From an uncultured Granulosicoccaceae bacterium (lineage in GTDB: Bacteria > Pseudomonadota > Gammaproteobacteria > Granulosicoccales > Granulosicoccaceae): 39,473 nucleotides of DNA. How positions within the stretch are numbered: the first letter of the stretch is position 1; each line of letters opens with the position of its first letter. Under the pieces are notes generated by a model, which searched no databases, was not told the DNA's origin, and worked only from the letters and a program-made list of their open reading frames with translations. This document shows, one piece after another, positions 4,000-29,677 of this stretch. A program made the translations under genes and the position numbers. Location of the stretch: NCBI GenBank assembly GCA_938008205.1, contig CALLLY010000086.1, forward strand, positions 1 to 39,473, written 5' to 3'.

Positions 4000-5025
4000 T
4001 TGAATATACTACACACAGTTTCAAACCTTATGTCTGGCGTAGCGCGCGTAACAGTGCCTGCGCTTGTCGGAGTCGGATTGTTGTCTTTTGTATCCGGCAC
4101 TGCTGCCGCACAAGATTGTCCGCGTGGTGACCTTGATAAAAAATACTGCGATGTCGATGGTGATCTGGTAGCAGATTTACCGACAGATCCTGCCGAGTGG
4201 GTCGATCCCAAAACCCTGGTGTTTGCCTACACGCCAGTTGAAGATCCGGCGGTGTACAAAGCTGCATGGTCTGATTTCCTGACGCATATGGAATCTGTAA
4301 CAGGCAAGAAGGTGCAGTTCTTTCCGGTTCAATCCAATGCCGCCCAAATTGAAGCCATGCGTTCAGGTCGATTACATGTCGCAGGATTTAATACCGGCTC
4401 CAATCCGTTGGCAGTGAACTGCGCGGGTTTCCGTTCTTTTGTGATTATGGGTCGCGAAGATGATTCCTTTGGCTATGAAATGGAAATTATCACCTACCCG
4501 GGTAGCGGCATTGAAAAAGTAGAGGATATCAAAGGCAAGACTCTGGCATTCACTTCACCAACTTCAAACTCCGGATTCAAGGCACCGTCTGCCATTTTGA
4601 AAGCAGAGTTCGGTATGGTTGCTGAAACCGATTTTAACCCTGAGTTCTCCGGTAAGCATGACAACTCAATTCTGGGTGTTGCCAATAAGGACTACCCGGC
4701 AGCTTCTATTGCTAATTCGGTGAAAGCCAGAATGATCGCCCGCGACGTGATCAAACCCGAACAGGTAACTACTATTTATAAGTCGCAAACCTTTCCAACA
4801 ACCGGGTTTGGTGTTGCACACAACCTTCATCCGGATTTACAAAAGAAAATTGAGGAGTCTTTTTTCACCTTTAAGTGGGTAAAGGAAGACGGCACCCCGA
4901 CCTCACTGAAAAAAGAGTTTGAAAAATCCAAGGAGGGTAAGTTTCTACCTATCACCTATCAGTCACACTGGGAAGTGATTCGAACTATCGATAAAGCTAA
5001 CGAAGTTTCCTACAGCTGTAGTTAG
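4000..5025 (+). CDS. phnD: Phosphate/phosphite/phosphonate ABC transporter substrate-binding protein, PhnD-like
   Basis: Start TTG 4000 is preceded by ggagga with 7-nt spacing (track start is 3943); signal peptide ending TAAAQ; LVFAYTPVEDPAVYKAAWSDFLTHMESVTGKKVQFFPVQSNAAQIEAMRSGRLHVAGFNTGSNPLAVNCAGF; phnC and phnE follow. Confidence 0.88.
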   Translation: MNILHTVSNLMSGVARVTVPALVGVGLLSFVSGTAAAQDCPRGDLDKKYCDVDGDLVADLPTDPAEWVDPKTLVFAYTPVEDPAVYKAAWSDFLTHMESVTGKKVQFFPVQSNAAQIEAMRSGRLHVAGFNTGSNPLAVNCAGFRSFVIMGREDDSFGYEMEIITYPGSGIEKVEDIKGKTLAFTSPTSNSGFKAPSAILKAEFGMVAETDFNPEFSGKHDNSILGVANKDYPAASIANSVKARMIARDVIKPEQVTTIYKSQTFPTTGFGVAHNLHPDLQKKIEESFFTFKWVKEDGTPTSLKKEFEKSKEGKFLPITYQSHWEVIRTIDKANEVSYSCS

Positions 5026-5062
5026 TTGCATCAGGTTGCAACTCAGCTATGTACGTTGCGTG

Positions 5063-5099
5063 CAAGTAGTGATCTGAGCCGCGCTCAGATTGCTACTTG
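5063..5099 (+). terminator. Stem-loop between phnD and phnC; candidate attenuator or mRNA stabiliser
   Basis: caagtagtgatctgagc / gctcagattgctacttg form a 17-bp stem (two G-U pairs) with a cgc loop; outer arms (cgttg...caacg) can extend it. Not followed immediately by a U tract. Confidence 0.6.
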
Positions 5100-5231
5100 T
5101 AACAACGCACTCTTACAAAAATAAAAAATTACCGGGGCGTGATAGCTGCCAGGAGCAGTTGTCGCGTGGCGGTGCTATGGCGAATGAGGCCTCTGATGTC
5201 TCAAGTAGTCACCTGACGGTCGGAGCCTGCG

Positions 5232-6035
5232 TTGCTACGAATTACCAATTTATCCAAAAGATATAAAACCGGTGACGATGCACTTAAGGGCGTGTCACTG
5301 GAAGTGCCAGACGGACAAGTGCTTGGACTGATCGGTCCCAGTGGTGCGGGTAAGAGCACGTTGATTCGTTGTGTAAACCGATTAGTGGAACCAACGACTG
5401 GCACGATAGATCTGAACGGGGCACAGTTGCAGCGACTTGGCAGTCGAAAGTTACGCAAGGCACGCCGCCGTATCGGCATGATTTTTCAGGAGTACGCCCT
5501 GGTAGAGCGATTGACGGTCATGGAAAACGTGCTATCCGGAAGACTTGGGTATGTCGGATTCTGGGCCAGTTGGTTTCGCAAATTCCCGCAGGACGATATC
5601 AATGAAGCATTCAGATTACTGGAACGTGTTGGTCTGGATCACATGGTCAACAAGCGTGCCGATGAACTATCCGGTGGGCAGCGTCAGCGCGTCGGGATTG
5701 CACGGGCGTTAATACAAAACCCTGAACTGCTGCTGGTAGATGAGCCAACTGCCTCGCTTGATCCAAAAACTTCACGGCAAATAATGCGTCTGATCTGTGA
5801 ACTGTGTGAAGAACGAAATTTGTCAGCCATTGTGAATATCCATGACGTTGCCCTTGCGCAGTTATTTGTGCAGAGAATTGTCGGACTGCAGGACGGTAAG
5901 ATTGTGTTTGACGGCCCGCCTGACAGCCTGGACTCGGCAGTATTAACTCAAATCTATGGTGAGGAAGACTGGGAAGCAACAACGATAGATGACACTCAGA
6001 CAGACAAACATAGTCTGGAGTTGTCTGGTGAGTGA
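5232..6035 (+). CDS. phnC: Phosphonate ABC transporter ATP-binding protein, PhnC-like
   Basis: Walker [10 protein letters not shown], signature [15 protein letters not shown], Walker [17 protein letters not shown] start with ggag upstream. Confidence 0.92.
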
Positions 6036-6831
6036 CGCACAGGTTGTTCGTCATTGGCGTAAACCACCGACCATAGAGCGCGCCTGGCTGCGCTATGGGT
6101 TGTTGTTGCTTACACTTGTCTACCTTTACTTTTCTGTTGGCTCGTACGATGTCAACTGGGCTCGCGTGGCTGAAGGACTCGATAGAGGCTGGGCATTTAT
6201 CAAAGCATTTGCCAATCCGGATTTTGTATCGAGAAGATCCGACTTTATCGAAGGTATGACCGAAAGCATCATTATGACAGTGACATCCACTGTCGTCGGT
6301 ATCATCATCTCTATACCTATCGCACTAGGTGCAGCCAGCAACCTTGCACCGTTACCGGTGTATCTTTTCTGTCGTGCGATTATTGCGTTATCGCGTGCTC
6401 TTCACGAAATTATTGTCGCTATTTTAATGGTTGCGATATTCGGCTTCGGTCCGCTGGCAGGGTTTATTACTTTGTCATTTGCCACCATCGGGTTTTTATC
6501 CAAACTCCTTGCAGAAGATATTGAGTCGATGGACAAAGCGCAGGCGGAAGCAGTTAAAGCTACCGGCGCCAGTTGGTTGCAGTGGATTAACTATGCGGTG
6601 CAACCGCAGGTTATGCCGAGGCTGATCGGTTTATCCATGTACCGCCTTGACATAAATTTTAGAGAATCAGCGGTGCTGGGGCTGGTAGGTGCCGGGGGTA
6701 TAGGTGCGACACTTAACACCGCCTTTGATCGCTACGAATTCGATACCGCAGCGGCGATTATTATTTCTATCATTGTGATTGTGATGGTACTGGAGTACAG
6801 CTCCAGCCTGATCAGAGGCTGGGTACAGTAG
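6028..6831 (+). CDS. phnE: Phosphonate ABC transporter permease, PhnE-like (first copy)
   Basis: GTG start at 6028 overlaps the phnC stop (track start is 5989); [68 protein letters not shown]. Confidence 0.9.
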
Positions 6832-7631
6832 TGGCGGGCAAACACGTTTGGCAAAGACGAACTACCACACGGCAACTGCTGATCTGGTTTGGCTGGCTGC
6901 TGCTGGTGGCGATATTTGTTGCCTGCTGGATGTACATATCCAATAGAACCGAGTGGTTTTTTGTTTATGATGCGCCTCGAATTGCCGGTGACATTTTCAG
7001 CCGTGCCACGCCACCGCGCTGGAGTTACATAGAAAAACTCTGGGAGCCTCTGTGGGACACCCTTAACGTGGCGACAATTGGTACTGCACTGTCGCTGATA
7101 TTTGCTATACCCGTTGCGTTTCTTGCGGCGAAAAACACCACCCCCAGCGTGACCTTTGTGCGTCCGATAGCGTTGTTTTTGATTGTTTCGTCGCGCTCTA
7201 TCAATTCCCTGATCTGGGCATTGTTACTGGTGGCCATCATTGGTCCGGGGATACTGGCCGGGACCATCGCCATTGCGTTGAGATCAATCGGCTTTTGTGC
7301 AAAGTTACTTTACGAAGCGATAGAAGAGATCAATACCACACAGGTAGAGGCGATTTCAGCCACTGGCGCGCGACAGTCACAAGTCATAAGCTACGGGATA
7401 TTGCCACAGATTATGCCGGCACTAGCCGGTATCACGGTATTCAGGTGGGATATCAATATTCGCGAATCTACTGTGCTTGGTCTGGTCGGTGCCGGGGGAA
7501 TCGGGCTACAGTTGCAAAGCTCGTTAAATATTCTGGCGTGGCCGCAGGTCGCGTTGATTCTATTGGTGATATTTATCGCTGTTATTGTTAGTGAATGGAT
7601 CTCTGCAATGGTTCGCAAGGCGATTATTTAA
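6831..7631 (+). CDS. phnE: Phosphonate ABC transporter permease, PhnE-like (second copy)
   Basis: GTG start overlaps the previous stop by 1 nt (TAGTG); [62 protein letters not shown]. Confidence 0.9.
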   Translation: MAGKHVWQRRTTTRQLLIWFGWLLLVAIFVACWMYISNRTEWFFVYDAPRIAGDIFSRATPPRWSYIEKLWEPLWDTLNVATIGTALSLIFAIPVAFLAAKNTTPSVTFVRPIALFLIVSSRSINSLIWALLLVAIIGPGILAGTIAIALRSIGFCAKLLYEAIEEINTTQVEAISATGARQSQVISYGILPQIMPALAGITVFRWDINIRESTVLGLVGAGGIGLQLQSSLNILAWPQVALILLVIFIAVIVSEWISAMVRKAII

Positions 7632-7673
7632 TTGCAGGTCTAATCTGGTTTAAAGTAAGAACGGTTTACTTGA

Positions 7674-8033
7674 ATGATTGATCACATCAGCATTTCTATT
7701 AGTGATATTGCAGTCAGTCAGCAATTTTATCTGCAGGCACTGGCGCCTCTCGATATGAGTGTGGTCGGTGAAGACAATGGCTGGATCGGGTTTGGTAAAG
7801 ATCAGCAGGGTGTATTCTGGTTTGGTGTTGAAGATGCACCGCTGCAACCAATGCACATCGCCTTTACCGCTGCTACCCGCGACGCGGTGGATCTTTTTTA
7901 TAATGCGGCAATATCATCCGGTGGTAAATGCAACGGCGCACCGGGGGTCAGAGTGCGTTACCACGCAAATTATTACGCTGCCTTTGTTCTGGACCCTGAC
8001 GGGCACAACATTGAAGCGGTTTGTCATCACTGA
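7674..8033 (+). CDS. VOC (glyoxalase/fosfomycin-resistance/dioxygenase superfamily) protein
   Basis: MIDHISISISDIAVSQQFYLQALAPLDM at the N-terminus; HIAFTAATRDAVDLFYNAAISSGGKCNGAPGVR...YHANYYAAFVLDPDGHNIEAVCH at the C-terminus. Confidence 0.88.
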   Translation: MIDHISISISDIAVSQQFYLQALAPLDMSVVGEDNGWIGFGKDQQGVFWFGVEDAPLQPMHIAFTAATRDAVDLFYNAAISSGGKCNGAPGVRVRYHANYYAAFVLDPDGHNIEAVCHH

Positions 8034-8055
8034 TTGGTCGCGGAGGTGAGTTGAA

Positions 8056-8538
8056 ATGTCGGATATGCTGGTCAACCTCTATGCTGAACGCGAAACAGAC
8101 AATCGCATTGCGCTTGCTGCAAACGGAGTTACCTGTAAACGGGCTCTGGCTTTGGATAAACAATCGATTATCGGGTTCGTAAAGCAACACTTTAGTACAG
8201 ACAATGAAGGCTGGGCAGATGAATGCAGTGTTGCACTTGGCAGACAACCGGGCAGCTGCTTCGTGGCGGTGAGTGAACAACAGCCCATCGGGTTTGCCTG
8301 CTATGACGCGACTGCCAAAGGCATGGTCGGGCCTTTGGGTGTGGCAGCCAGCTATCGTCAACAGGGTGTTGCGACGGTGTTATTAAACTTGTGTTTCGAG
8401 GCGATGAAGGCAGATGGATATGCCTATGCGGTGATTGGCTGGGTAAGTTCCGAAGATTTTTACCGCAAGTGTTGCGGTGCCATCGCGATCCCGGGGAGTG
8501 CCCCGGGTGTGTACAGCCGAATGCTTAACAATCTATAG
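8056..8538 (+). CDS. GNAT family N-acetyltransferase
   Basis: GFACYDATAKGMVGPLGVAASYRQQGVATVLLNLCFEAMKADGYAYAVIGW matches the GNAT acetyl-CoA binding region (V-x-x-x-x-R-x-x-G-V/I-A). Confidence 0.85.
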   Translation: MSDMLVNLYAERETDNRIALAANGVTCKRALALDKQSIIGFVKQHFSTDNEGWADECSVALGRQPGSCFVAVSEQQPIGFACYDATAKGMVGPLGVAASYRQQGVATVLLNLCFEAMKADGYAYAVIGWVSSEDFYRKCCGAIAIPGSAPGVYSRMLNNL

Positions 8539-9585
8539 CGGTTTATCTTCAGGGAGATAGCGTGCTTTCCACAGCGTTGCCAATGAATTAGCAGCGGCGG
8601 CTGCTTGTTCGTCGAGCTTGCTTCTGCAAAGCGTGCTGGCGTCAAGGTCGTCCGGGTAACCGTTTGCCATGGCGACATCTACCCAGGCTGTGCACTTAAC
8701 GTAGTCCTGCTCGGTGCCAAGGCCATCGTGGTGAAGTATGCCAAGCGTATACTGAGCATGTGGATGGCCTTGTTCTGCGGCAAGTGTGTACCACTTTACC
8801 GCCTCGGCGTAGTTGGTTTTAATGCGATTGCCTTCATGGTACAACGATCCAAGCAGTGTTTGTGCTTCGGCGTTGCCGCGGTTTGCCGCCTTGGTGTACC
8901 AGTCTATGGCCTGATCAAAGTCCCGTTCCACACCGATGCCTTCACTGTACATATAACCAAGCTTCTGTTGTGCCGCAGCATTACCGTTTTCGGCCGCATC
9001 CAGCCACCATTGCCGGGCACTTTGGTAGTTTTGTGTCGCGCCAATGCCGGTGTAGTACATATTGCCCAGTTCGTACTGAGCAGTTTGTTCCCCTTGTATG
9101 GAAGCTAGCTCCAACCATAGTCGCGCCACTGCAAAGTCCTGCGGTACCCCTTTGCCACTGGCATAGGCCTGACCCAGCTGAAGCTGCGATGGAATGTGTC
9201 CTCGTTCTGCGCGCCAGGTGACAATGCCCATGTCATCGGTTTGATGGTGAGGCTTTACCACCGCTGCCGGTGTGCCGGTTTTTCGAACCACTGGCGGTTC
9301 AGGTGTTTGTGGTACTTGAGTCGGTGCGTTAGCCAAGGTGGTGTTGGTGTTTGCCTGATCTGCCGATGGTGCAGGTGGCAACGGTAAGCGATCACTGGCG
9401 CTATCTGTTTGAGTTGATGCTTGCGATGGTACCGGTGGAGTAGCGGGGAGTTGCGGTATCTCTAGTCTGTTTGAAGGGGGCGCGGTGTCGACGACCGCAG
9501 GCTCTTCGACGCTGGTGGCACAGCCAACTGACAAAATAGTCGCTGCAACAGCGATGGTGTGTATTTTGGTGTGTTTGAATTGCAT
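8533..9585 (-). CDS. Sel1-like repeat lipoprotein with proline-rich linker
   Basis: Lipobox SVGC; repeated A-x-x-x-L-G-x-x-Y-x-x-G-x-G-x-x-x-(D/N)-Y/F-x-x-A-x-x-W motifs (GNMYYTGIGATQNYQSARQWW, GYMYSEGIGVERDFDQAIDWY, GSLYHEGNRIKTNYAEAVKWY). Confidence 0.9.
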   Translation of the reverse strand: MQFKHTKIHTIAVAATILSVGCATSVEEPAVVDTAPPSNRLEIPQLPATPPVPSQASTQTDSASDRLPLPPAPSADQANTNTTLANAPTQVPQTPEPPVVRKTGTPAAVVKPHHQTDDMGIVTWRAERGHIPSQLQLGQAYASGKGVPQDFAVARLWLELASIQGEQTAQYELGNMYYTGIGATQNYQSARQWWLDAAENGNAAAQQKLGYMYSEGIGVERDFDQAIDWYTKAANRGNAEAQTLLGSLYHEGNRIKTNYAEAVKWYTLAAEQGHPHAQYTLGILHHDGLGTEQDYVKCTAWVDVAMANGYPDDLDASTLCRSKLDEQAAAAANSLATLWKARYLPEDKPL

Positions 9586-26005: not shown

Positions 26006-26102
26006 CCGCCAGCGCGGTGCCGGGTCACATAATAATAACGTCGGCGGTCGCTTGTTTAGCTAACGACGAGACTAAAATCCCCCGGCACCTTTGTTTAGGT
26101 GC
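26006..26102 (+). promoter_or_regulatory. Structured leader with mutually exclusive helices upstream of the beta-barrel-like gene
   Basis: ggtgccggg (26016-26024) pairs perfectly with cccggcacc (26081-26089), enclosing cgtcg/cgacg (26039-26043/26064-26068). gcacct (26085-26090) can instead pair with aggtgc (26097-26102). Confidence 0.45.
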
Positions 26103-26116
26103 TGTACGAGTTTTCA

Positions 26117-26908
26117 ATGGACACAGTGCGTTTTACTTACAAAACGGCAGCAGCGATAGTACTGGGTGCAATCCCGGGATTGTGTTTTGCTGACACCCCG
26201 GCCGATTATCGTATTGGCGGGTTTGGTGTGCAAAGTTCTTTCGCCGATGAGTACTCCGAAGCGGCCTCGGATAGTGGCAATCGCTCGGAAATGCTGTTCA
26301 AACTCTCTCCGCCCGAGTCTGTCGAAGATCCAGAGCTGCCAGATGAAACTGCGAATTACTGGAACAGTGAAGTACGCCTGAACCGGATTGATTTTTTAAA
26401 GCCCGGTGAAGCGCGCATGCACGATATTCATCAGGGGTTTTCCTACTCTGCATCCTTCGATGTGGAATCTGAAAAGTTTCGCAGCGAATCCCGCATGATC
26501 AGTAGTCGACAACTCGGCATCCATTACGGACGATTGGGATCGGTGAATTACAGCGGTGTGGATTTGAGCTTTCGCCAGTTTAACGAAGAACCCGAAGTGC
26601 CGGAGTCCGCCGATGACAAAGAACTGTGGTCATTAGGGGTGACTACTGGCAGACGTTTTTCCATGACCGGGCTCGAGCCGTCAGACCCGTTGTGGACTGT
26701 GTCTTTGCGGGGGCAGTTCAGTCTTTCAGAGCAGAATGACGATCGCATTGAAGTGGAAGATCAGCAATGGTACCTGTCACCCGGGTTGCATTGGGAAGGC
26801 GATAGCTTTTTGCTCAGCGCAGATGTTCTGATGCCTTTCCTGCAAAGCGGTGAGTATGAAGCCGAAACCGATTATCGCATTCGCGCTAACATACAAAAGC
26901 GCTTCTAG
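26117..26908 (+). CDS. Hypothetical exported protein, probable outer-membrane beta-barrel
   Basis: MDTVRFTYKTAAAIVLGAIPGLCFADT signal peptide; alternating-residue strands; ends in ...YRIRANIQKRF with terminal Phe, as in OMP C-terminal signals. The track start at 26099 is an upstream GTG. Confidence 0.65.
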   Translation: MDTVRFTYKTAAAIVLGAIPGLCFADTPADYRIGGFGVQSSFADEYSEAASDSGNRSEMLFKLSPPESVEDPELPDETANYWNSEVRLNRIDFLKPGEARMHDIHQGFSYSASFDVESEKFRSESRMISSRQLGIHYGRLGSVNYSGVDLSFRQFNEEPEVPESADDKELWSLGVTTGRRFSMTGLEPSDPLWTVSLRGQFSLSEQNDDRIEVEDQQWYLSPGLHWEGDSFLLSADVLMPFLQSGEYEAETDYRIRANIQKRF

Positions 26909-26913
26909 TTAAA

Positions 26914-27306
26914 TCACTGGAAAGCCACAACATCCCATCCCTTTGGCTCAAGTGATCCGTCACTCAGCAGAATTTTTTTGTCTGCTTTTACATGGCTGTA
27001 CAAACGCTTAAGATTATCTTCGCTGAGCTTGCCGAATGAGGTTCGAAAGATGACATCTTTCGAGGCGAGTTCCGGCAGCGGTCCCAGTGACGCCTTGTCG
27101 GTTCCGATGGTAACGTTTTTATATCTGGAAGAGTCCTCGTAGTCTTCAATCCAGTTTTTCACCGAAGGAAAGTCAGGTTTCATTGAAAATGAGGTATCCA
27201 CTACCAGCAGCACTTCTGATTTATTGGCAGTGAAATAAATATGCGAGCCTATCCATAACAGGCACTGCAATAAAATCAAGGCGCCGAATATCTTGATGAA
27301 CTTCAT
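26914..27306 (-). CDS. Small membrane-anchored protein with compact vWA-like fold
   Basis: 130 aa; N-terminal hydrophobic anchor KFIKIFGALILLQCLLWIGSHIYF; EVLLVVDTSFSM (D-x-S-x-S MIDAS) and KKILLSDGS (second MIDAS aspartate). Confidence 0.6.
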   Translation of the reverse strand: MKFIKIFGALILLQCLLWIGSHIYFTANKSEVLLVVDTSFSMKPDFPSVKNWIEDYEDSSRYKNVTIGTDKASLGPLPELASKDVIFRTSFGKLSEDNLKRLYSHVKADKKILLSDGSLEPKGWDVVAFQ

Positions 27307-27309
27307 GCG

Positions 27310-28995
27310 TTACATCTCAGAGTTGAGCAGGTTGCCAATGCGGTACGAAGCAGATTCAGCGCTCGATTCTATATAGGCACCTTCGGCAAGACTTGCCATT
27401 GCCTTGAGATGGTCGGAAGATAACTCGTAGGCAATAGAGTGAATGGGTATGCCAGTCCATTCCATGGTTTTTTCGACACTGGCGTATTCCAGGCCTTTGT
27501 TTGTTTCTCCATCTGACAATACAAAGATAACCAGTTTGTGATTCGGATTGGTGCTGGCAAAATCTACTAGCTCCTGTGCGGCGACGAGTACTGCATCGTT
27601 AGTGGCGGTGCCGCCACCGGTCTGGAGTTGTTCTACCGCACCTATAAACAGTGATTTCTGCTGTATGTTGAACTGCTTAATGCTCAGGTCGACGTTTACT
27701 CGCTCGTTATAGCTCACCAGTCCGATAGAGTTGCCGGAGCTGATTAAATCTGAGGATTCAATGAGTGCGCGCTTAAGGTTTTTAATTCTGGAACCGTCCA
27801 TAGAACCGGAGACATCTGCAACAAAAACCGCTGCGATGGGTCTGCCACCGGATTTCTTTTCTTTCCAGATTTTCTGTGCGTTGAGAATCATAGCGCCGTT
27901 GTCCAGCTTGTAGGTGCTGGTGTAGTTCGCTTGTCTGCCAAACCCGTAATCTGTGACTGCACGTTTATTCTGATCTAGAAACTTTGCGAACAGCGCTAGT
28001 ACCTCTCGCTCTGCGCTGTCTGCTTCGGCAGTGGCGTACAACGGACTGTCGTGTCTGACGCCAAATGGCAGGAACTCATAGTCCCCCATGCCTTTAACGT
28101 TAACCCACGATTGATGCTCCATAACCAGTGCGTCGAGAACACCGCTGTCGACAGCGGCATCACGCATCTGCAGAGTGGTTTGCGCCACGAAAGGCACACC
28201 GGCCTGAAACGCTTCGAAGGCACTTGCGACGTCCGGAGCCAGCATCTGGCTTTCATCGCCTTCTGCAAAGGCGTTGAGAACGGTTAGCAGGAAGTTAAGA
28301 CCGGTACTCGATTGGTAGGGATTTGTGTATCCCATAGAAAAATTGCCAGTCGTGACCTCGGTCAGTAGTTTTTGAATATCAAGCTGGTTATTGGTGGTGA
28401 TGAGATCTTTCTTTGACTTACGCACAATCACACCGGCAGTGTTGGGTGCAGTCACTTCAGAGATAACAGAAAGTGAGATGCCCTGACCTGAAAGCATATC
28501 CCCCCATAAATGGTTACTTGGTGAGAACGCGTCAGGTGTATTGCGTTGTGCCAATATAAATTGTGCCCCCAGGCCCGAGGCTATTTTGCGAATGCCAACC
28601 TGTGCAATTTTTCCATTACCAATTTTGAGCTGCTGATTATTAAACGCCTGAGCCATCTCAATATACAGACCATCACGGCCGGAGCCGGCTTTTTCAGAGG
28701 AAGTGAATATCTCCACCGCCTCGACACGGCTGCTGTCGCGGGCGTCGAGCGACATCGGGTATTCACTCATGCTCGGTAGCATGGATAGCAGATTGGTTTG
28801 TGTGAGCTCTATGTTCGCACGGTAGTTGTTCTCGCGGCGGCTTGGCCGAATAGTTTCGGACACCAGTTCATTAAGTTGTTTTAAAGCAGTTTCTTTACTG
28901 TCTACTTCACCGGGACCACAGGCCGCCAGCGCCATTGCCATCGTTGCACATACGCTTGCGTACAGTGCGCCTTTTGCAGTTGAACGTAAATTCAT
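27310..28995 (-). CDS. Lipoprotein with periplasmic-binding-like region and C-terminal von Willebrand factor A domain
   Basis: Lipobox ALAACGPG; SBP-like segments (NFSMGYTNPYQSSTGLNFLLTVL, AGVPFVAQTTLQMRDAAVDSGVLDALVMEHQSW); vWA motifs AVFVADVSGSMDGSRI, GGGTATNDA, VIFVLSDGETNKG. Confidence 0.87.
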   Translation of the reverse strand: MNLRSTAKGALYASVCATMAMALAACGPGEVDSKETALKQLNELVSETIRPSRRENNYRANIELTQTNLLSMLPSMSEYPMSLDARDSSRVEAVEIFTSSEKAGSGRDGLYIEMAQAFNNQQLKIGNGKIAQVGIRKIASGLGAQFILAQRNTPDAFSPSNHLWGDMLSGQGISLSVISEVTAPNTAGVIVRKSKKDLITTNNQLDIQKLLTEVTTGNFSMGYTNPYQSSTGLNFLLTVLNAFAEGDESQMLAPDVASAFEAFQAGVPFVAQTTLQMRDAAVDSGVLDALVMEHQSWVNVKGMGDYEFLPFGVRHDSPLYATAEADSAEREVLALFAKFLDQNKRAVTDYGFGRQANYTSTYKLDNGAMILNAQKIWKEKKSGGRPIAAVFVADVSGSMDGSRIKNLKRALIESSDLISSGNSIGLVSYNERVNVDLSIKQFNIQQKSLFIGAVEQLQTGGGTATNDAVLVAAQELVDFASTNPNHKLVIFVLSDGETNKGLEYASVEKTMEWTGIPIHSIAYELSSDHLKAMASLAEGAYIESSAESASYRIGNLLNSEM

Positions 28996-29008
28996 TGAGG
29001 GCTCCGTG

Positions 29009-29677
29009 TCACTGACTTTGTTGTTTGGCTATGCTGACCAGGTCTTTCAGACGGGCAAGCGTTTCTGTGCGTTCGAACTCGCCTATCTCCTGGATATTGG
29101 CAACTTCCACTGAGGTGTCGGACAGCGCTTTGAACAGAGTGCGATTTTCAGCGAGTAACGATTCAAGTCGTTGCTGCTGCATTTGCAGTTGTGCTTCATC
29201 GCGCTGACTGCGTTGTCTTTTCAGGCTGGAAATGCTGTGTCCTATTCCGACCATATCTGACAAATTCTGCAGTGATTGATTTTGAACGTTTCGTGCTGCA
29301 TCGAGATAGGTGCTGGAACTCAGCTGCTTGCCCCGAAAGCGGTTGGCGATAACCTCATGAAAATCGTTAAGTAAATGCCTGAGTGTGACAACCTGTTTCG
29401 CACCGTCTTTATTTTCCAGGGATTCAAGGTCACTTTGCATGGTAGAGAGTCGTTGCATCATTTCGTCGTGTTCGCGCTCTTCCTGATCGAGCAGGCCGCG
29501 GATGACGTCGAGATCGAGAAAACCAAACCATCGATAGCAAAGTGGTACCAGCGCGAGTGCCAGTATGGAGATAATGGCGTAGCCGATTGTCGTGAGCCAC
29601 GGTGATTGAAACCACCAGGAGTAGGCACCCACCAACAACAATGTTGCCAGTGCAGCCGTAGCAATCGCGTTGATCAA
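29009..29677 (-). CDS. Hypothetical membrane protein: two N-terminal TM segments and coiled-coil region
   Basis: Hydrophobic IATAALATLLLVGAYSWWF and TIGYAIISILALALVPLCY, then a Glu/Gln-rich helical region; 13 nt upstream of the SBP-vWA gene. No family assigned with confidence. Confidence 0.65.
   Translation of the reverse strand: MINAIATAALATLLLVGAYSWWFQSPWLTTIGYAIISILALALVPLCYRWFGFLDLDVIRGLLDQEEREHDEMMQRLSTMQSDLESLENKDGAKQVVTLRHLLNDFHEVIANRFRGKQLSSSTYLDAARNVQNQSLQNLSDMVGIGHSISSLKRQRSQRDEAQLQMQQQRLESLLAENRTLFKALSDTSVEVANIQEIGEFERTETLARLKDLVSIAKQQSQ

Follow-up and report, generated by a model that had tools for sequence, protein, structure and literature searches.

The question raised by three adjacent minus-strand genes in an uncultured Granulosicoccaceae bacterium is whether their products make up one envelope sensing or stress system and, if so, how that system relates to the TelA/XpaC-type proteins. 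The genes lie in contig CALLLY010000086.1 (assembly GCA_938008205.1), of which positions 1 to 39,473, the whole 39,473-nucleotide stretch analysed, are referred to here as the window. Gene 1 (29009-29677, minus strand) starts with TTG and encodes 222 amino acids, with a predicted membrane hairpin followed by a helical or coiled-coil C-terminal part. Gene 2 (27310-28995, minus strand) encodes a 561-aa lipoprotein in which a type-2 periplasmic-binding domain is followed by a vWA domain. Gene 3 (26914-27306, minus strand) encodes a protein of 130 aa, predicted to be a signal-anchored periplasmic mini-vWA with a domain of ~100 residues.

A preliminary description of the sequence had treated the three genes as one operon, given the gaps of 13 nt (gene 1/gene 2) and 3 nt (gene 2/gene 3). 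The open reading frames are found where that description placed them, and the operon is supported by the order and strand of the genes, which are kept in the loci of relatives. The TTG start of gene 1 and the preceding Shine-Dalgarno-like AGAGGAA are the same in L027 and L028, the closest relatives, and GGGGAA precedes the TTG start in another relative (L029). Scans for a sigma-70-type promoter upstream of the trio and for an intrinsic terminator at the trio recognised nothing above chance. The neighbours of the trio encode DarP, an outer-membrane-like protein, a DUF3108 protein, PurN and PurM; the end of gene 3 is separated by 5 nt from the convergent gene at 26099-26908 (plus strand). The 269-aa product of this convergent gene resembles an outer-membrane beta-barrel or a secreted protein; it is found in near relatives only and is matched by no Pfam or NCBIfam family.

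The anatomy proposed at the outset for gene 2, a lipoprotein with a binding-protein region and a vWA domain with a MIDAS, holds: a lipobox is present (LAAC in the window protein, and a lipobox in most of the proteobacterial forms inspected), both domains are recognised, and the MIDAS is invariant. The binding-protein-like domain (27961..28743, minus strand; approximately residues 85-345) is recognised through the SBP_bac_11 family, which matches the gene 2 orthologue of locus L088 (4.5e-15), and through Foldseek searches with an AF2 model (pLDDT 86, pTM 0.81, from a 37-row alignment). The best structural relatives of this domain are the ferric-binding FbpA/HitA, the sulfate-binding Sbp and the molybdate/tungstate-binding ModA/WtpA, with E values of 1e-9 to 1e-7 for FbpA/HitA/Sbp/ModA; by fold, an oxyanion or a metal ion would be the most likely class of ligand. 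The closeness to ferric-, sulfate- and molybdate-binding proteins also speaks for a role in uptake or ion scavenging, in which gene 2 would serve a transporter as its binding protein, with the permease encoded elsewhere and genes 1 and 3 as accessory anchors. We regard such a role as improbable: no ABC permease or ATPase gene accompanies the binding protein among the immediate neighbours of the window operon, the neighbours vary between families while the trio is constant, and transporter binding proteins normally carry no C-terminal vWA domain.

The second domain of gene 2 (27313..27837, minus strand; residues 387-561) is unambiguously a vWA domain (PF00092, 3.7e-15). Its profile matches in the PDB include the vWA domains of alpha-2/delta and the inter-alpha-inhibitor, and its Foldseek relatives are the vWA domains of alpha-2/delta, CLCA1 and the inter-alpha-inhibitor, with BatB also among the structural matches. 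The MIDAS is of the functional type, with DxSxS, Thr and Asp in a vWA fold, and consists of DVSGS (27802..27816, minus strand; residues 394-398, with D394, S396, G397 and S398 invariant in 37/37 sequences), the threonine segment TAT (27601..27609, minus strand; residues 463-465, 37/37) and LSDG (27508..27519, minus strand; residues 493-496, 37/37). The five residues D394, S396, S398, T463 and D495 are invariant across all 37 sequences of an alignment that takes in both Proteobacteria and Bacilli. The dN/dS of gene 2, ~0.03-0.04 in close pairs with synonymous sites near saturation, indicates strong constraint; owing to this saturation, estimates on close pairs are usable for gene 2 and for a single pair of gene 1 sequences, which gives 0.05.

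The protein encoded by gene 3 has one hydrophobic segment at the N-terminus and, in the window, no match in the family libraries, including Pfam and NCBIfam. Sequence gives only a hint of its nature, VWA being the commonest weak family match among 52 homologues (8/52, best E 0.011). In the AF2 model (pLDDT 86), a TM helix is followed in turn by beta, alpha, beta-hairpin, helices, beta and beta, and vWA or integrin I domains account for 14 of its 15 top Foldseek matches in the PDB (best match E 0.012, probability 0.98; TM ~0.35-0.52), which lets us assign gene 3, with moderate confidence, to a truncated vWA. The preliminary description had credited this protein with a MIDAS of its own. The motifs DTSFS (27184..27198, minus strand; residues 37-41) and LSDG (26956..26967, minus strand; residues 114-117) are present, within a vWA by predicted fold, but their residues are only partly conserved. 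In the 52-row alignment, D37 is found in 52/52 and S39 in 51/52 sequences; S41 is not conserved (Ser in 20/52, Ala in 25/52), and D116, present in 46/52, is missing in Reinekea, Parendozoicomonas, Motiliproteus and Maritalea, so that the lack of a complete conserved MIDAS extends to early-branching relatives. The features conserved in place of the MIDAS are TDK (69-71), R88 and an FG pair (91-92). Judged by the alignment, the metal site of gene 3 is degenerate across relatives, and the suggestion that two metal-dependent vWA proteins act together is therefore unsupported; an invariant MIDAS exists in gene 2 only. Nor does a comparison of profiles (P 0.025, across 16 columns) support the idea that gene 3 arose by duplication of the vWA domain of gene 2.

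The combination of an invariant MIDAS in gene 2, which could hold an acidic residue of a partner, with another vWA fold, that of gene 3, is compatible with a structural or assembly module as well. Here, the vWA pair would be a chaperone or scaffold for the maturation of an envelope complex, comparable to BatA/BatB- and CoxE-type proteins, which likewise are envelope or partner-binding vWA proteins with a MIDAS, and the binding-like domain of gene 2 would be a fold that binds protein and no small ligand. The presence of BatB among the structural matches of gene 2 fits this possibility, which, taken as a whole, we nevertheless consider unlikely. Unlike the BatA/BatB and CoxE-type loci, the window operon has in its immediate neighbourhood no gene for a MoxR-type AAA ATPase, with which vWA proteins of this kind are usually partnered, and the vWA of gene 2 is fused to a type-2 binding domain; the link of relatives to TelA, described below, also counts against an assembly role.

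Gene 1 conforms to its first description as a coiled-coil protein with two TM segments: two hydrophobic segments (approximately residues 1-20 and 26-54), joined by a WWF turn, are followed by a helix-rich, coiled-coil-like stretch, and W21/F22 and N193 are invariant in a 45-row alignment. In Paenibacillaceae, the gene that directly precedes gene 2 is probably a homologue of gene 1, given reciprocal profile matches (down to 3.4e-7 and 3.9e-9) that are collinear over 163 columns. Coiled coils can inflate such scores, as illustrated by a 1135-aa ORF in locus L197 that scores 1e-7 with the gene 1 profile, and operon position therefore carries much of the argument for homology. XpaC (PF10112) is the commonest weak Pfam match of the gene 1 homologues (10/45, best 1.8e-4); the gathering cut-off is not reached, the window protein itself has no XpaC match in the Pfam search, and the comparison of the gene 1 profile with local XpaC proteins is not significant (P 0.013). 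These matches suggest that gene 1 may be remote kin of the XpaC-type partners of TelA, with a similarity below the Pfam cut-off.

The three genes are inherited together. Searching genomes with gene 2 yielded 72 loci, 62 proteobacterial-type and 10 from Bacilli; gene 3 directly follows gene 2 in 62/62 of the proteobacterial-type loci, and gene 1 precedes gene 2 in the order gene 1-gene 2-gene 3 on one strand in all 60 with enough sequence, the two gaps ranging from -28 to 142 and from 0 to 63 nt. Within the Granulosicoccaceae, all three genes occur in the same 25 of 36 genomes, and in a sample of the class, genes 2 and 3 occur in the same 5 of 369. The synteny purM-purN-DUF3108-trio-omp-darP-yhdP is conserved in close relatives; in other families, the flanks differ and the trio is retained. 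Because the trio stays one unit across families, its arrangement is far beyond chance. The preliminary description had named rare co-occurrence of the homologues as an outcome that would refute its interpretation; in Proteobacteria, genes 1 and 3 are found strictly with gene 2. The 62 proteobacterial-type loci include one labelled Aquificaceae (L065, QOAQ01000003.1), which is probably a mis-binned contig in that MAG because the gene 2 tree nests its trio within Thiotrichaceae.

The connection to TelA/XpaC-type stress genes, raised in the preliminary description, is borne out in relatives, where TelA adjoins gene 2 or the trio. All 27 Bacilli loci have the order gene 1-like/gene 2/TelA (10/10 in a first search and 17/17 in a second, the L088 query genome falling in both), and the TelA of L088 is confirmed by PF05816. 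Within this set, the operon of Paenibacillaceae and Rossellomorea encodes a gene 2 orthologue that is 41-43% identical over the whole protein and follows a homologous membrane coiled-coil gene, as in the window; it differs in having TelA instead of the mini-vWA as the third gene, and an N-terminal hydrophobic segment without a lipobox, in those inspected, where the window protein has a lipobox. Among proteobacteria, TelA lies divergently beside the trio in Motiliproteus, two Reinekea and Parendozoicomonas (L038, L071, L073 and L079), and in the gammaproteobacterium G393 (L193) the order is gene 1-gene 2-gene 3-TelA on one strand, with the TelA frame cut by the contig end. A side case is G054 (L196, 5103-7833), where a gene 1-like frame stands next to a TelA-like frame without genes 2 and 3; it was set aside as main evidence for the TelA link, the branch that leads to its TelA in the tree being very long.

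No TelA is encoded near the window operon, and the clade of the window has no TelA of the SBP-vWA-linked type, in agreement with the alternative, already entertained in the preliminary description, that the locus is a variant of the TelA-associated form. The TelA tree consists of two well separated clades, one SBP-vWA-linked (support 100/99) and the other XpaC-SPFH-linked (99/97). The sole TelA of the window's genome groups in the latter and is encoded on another contig (L001; contig C285, 2-3531), in a cluster comprising XpaC, TelA, SPFH (Band_7 with GYF_2) and a zinc-ribbon protein. This TelA was considered as a partner of the trio and rejected: it belongs to the other clade and to an XpaC-TelA-SPFH operon, and TelA of this type, found in 33/36 genomes of the family, is present in all 11 genomes without the trio and so does not follow it by co-inheritance.

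Among Proteobacteria, the TelA-linked lineages are the first to diverge in the gene 2 tree, whose crown consists of the TelA-less Granulosicoccaceae and Thiotrichales. The Maritalea genomes (L040, L042 and L045; Alphaproteobacteria) possess the trio and no TelA anywhere in the genome, and the trio, whatever its role, therefore does not require TelA. The gene 2 sequences of Maritalea stand beside Motiliproteus, nested among gammaproteobacterial sequences, which suggests that this trio was acquired by lateral transfer. The simplest history would involve an ancestral gene 1-gene 2-TelA system, the presence of the mini-vWA in the proteobacterial branch, and loss of TelA in the crown group and in Maritalea.

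Ter-type systems include both a vWA protein (TerY) and TelA, and the TelA neighbours of relatives could accordingly point to a defence or Ter-type conflict module. We hold this to be highly improbable, given that PADLOC detects TerY alone, with E 0.013 and over part of the gene 2 vWA, that the chromosomal synteny is conserved in close relatives, and that a search of 50,697 phage records yielded no match.

The reading that we favour, with about even confidence, is that the trio forms a single complex across the envelope, for sensing or for protection against stress, and that this complex is derived from an XpaC-like/SBP-vWA/TelA system and has no TelA. Gene 2, a periplasmic protein with a lipid anchor, would bind a small ligand in its type-2 binding domain and use its intact MIDAS to dock a partner; the subunit dedicated to this docking would be gene 3, a mini-vWA anchored in the inner membrane and with a degenerate metal site. 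Gene 1, with its hairpin in the inner membrane and its coiled coil in the cytoplasm, would signal to the cell interior which state the periplasmic pair is in. Cytosolic TelA would, in relatives, read the coiled coil of gene 1; in the clade of the window, this output would have been lost or replaced. A function in envelope stress would be in line with the placement of Bacillus subtilis xpaC-yaaN (YaaN being of the TelA family) in the sigma-W envelope-stress regulon (PMC3498285) and with the contribution to resistance against nisin and cell-wall antibiotics reported for Listeria TelA (Collins 2010, as cited in PMC12791056). Points that weigh against this reading are the TelA-free trio of Maritalea, the sub-threshold similarity of gene 1 to XpaC, the spurious matches to which coiled coils are prone, and the lack of a recognisable sigma-70-like promoter.

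The window operon resembles the XpaC-TelA pairs (B. subtilis xpaC-yaaN, Listeria lmo1966-lmo1967), in which a membrane coiled-coil protein comparable to gene 1 is encoded beside TelA, and the leading weak Pfam match of the gene 1 homologues is to the XpaC family. It differs from these pairs in the absence of TelA, in a gene 1 that falls under the XpaC cut-off, and in the addition of SBP-vWA and mini-vWA; a true XpaC-TelA-SPFH operon is separately present in the same genome. Many bacteria have TelA/XpaC proteins, which are linked to envelope stress. In the locus family described here, a vWA pair and a ligand-binding protein of the periplasm stand on the outer side of a TelA/XpaC-type system, which gives a testable hypothesis for what such proteins listen to, and the lineage that retains the outer part with TelA dropped is a natural experiment on which part does what. 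A literature search on TelA with XpaC, vWA or SPFH, with most subscription journals outside its reach, found no paper on the trio operon, no counterpart of the gene 3 protein and no description of the Paenibacillaceae/Rossellomorea operon.

The partnership of genes 2 and 3 extends to cyanobacterial plasmids. Homologues of gene 2 (30-32% identity) are encoded on four plasmid records, and a search with one of the cyanobacterial small proteins returned the same four records. The three loci inspected (L198, L199 and L200, on plasmids of Pseudanabaena and Stanieria) contain four SBP-vWA genes, and in 3/3 a gene for a small TM protein with the layout of gene 3 directly follows an SBP-vWA gene, as gene 3 follows gene 2. 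Of the three cyanobacterial mini-vWA proteins, two are matched by the gene 3 profile (5.4e-5 and 7.5e-5, in a small set of ~24 proteins), the third only at 0.09; in reverse, the cyanobacterial mini-vWA profile has gene 3 proteins as its top matches (1.2e-5) in a set of 1265 ORFs. Because the mini-vWA follows gene 2 homologues on these plasmids, the partnership would be either older than the proteobacterial clade or spread by transfer. The cyanobacterial mini-vWA has Cys at two MIDAS positions, the second MIDAS Ser and at or near the LSDG Asp, and a disulfide could occupy the former metal site. TelA is not listed in the flanks of the loci inspected.

A bolder reading takes a dedicated periplasmic pair of heterologous vWA proteins, with one MIDAS intact and the other degenerate, as the core of a trans-envelope signalling machine that is sparsely but widely spread, that has no TelA, known kinase, transporter or ATPase as a partner, and in which the degenerate MIDAS of the cyanobacterial form is replaced by a possible Cys-Cys link. 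We put this forward as a tentative and somewhat doubtful proposal. Several further features of the plasmid loci may be recorded. Genes for two-TM coiled-coil proteins with weak similarity to gene 1 lie near by (L199, 7185-7841; L200, 3153-3677). SPFH/prohibitin genes occur near the SBP-vWA genes in L198 and L199, two of the three loci inspected, and a CHAT-domain protein is encoded in L198. In the latter locus (4944-8635, Pseudanabaena), the SBP-vWA gene is a tandem duplicate, and the mini-vWA gene follows the second copy only.
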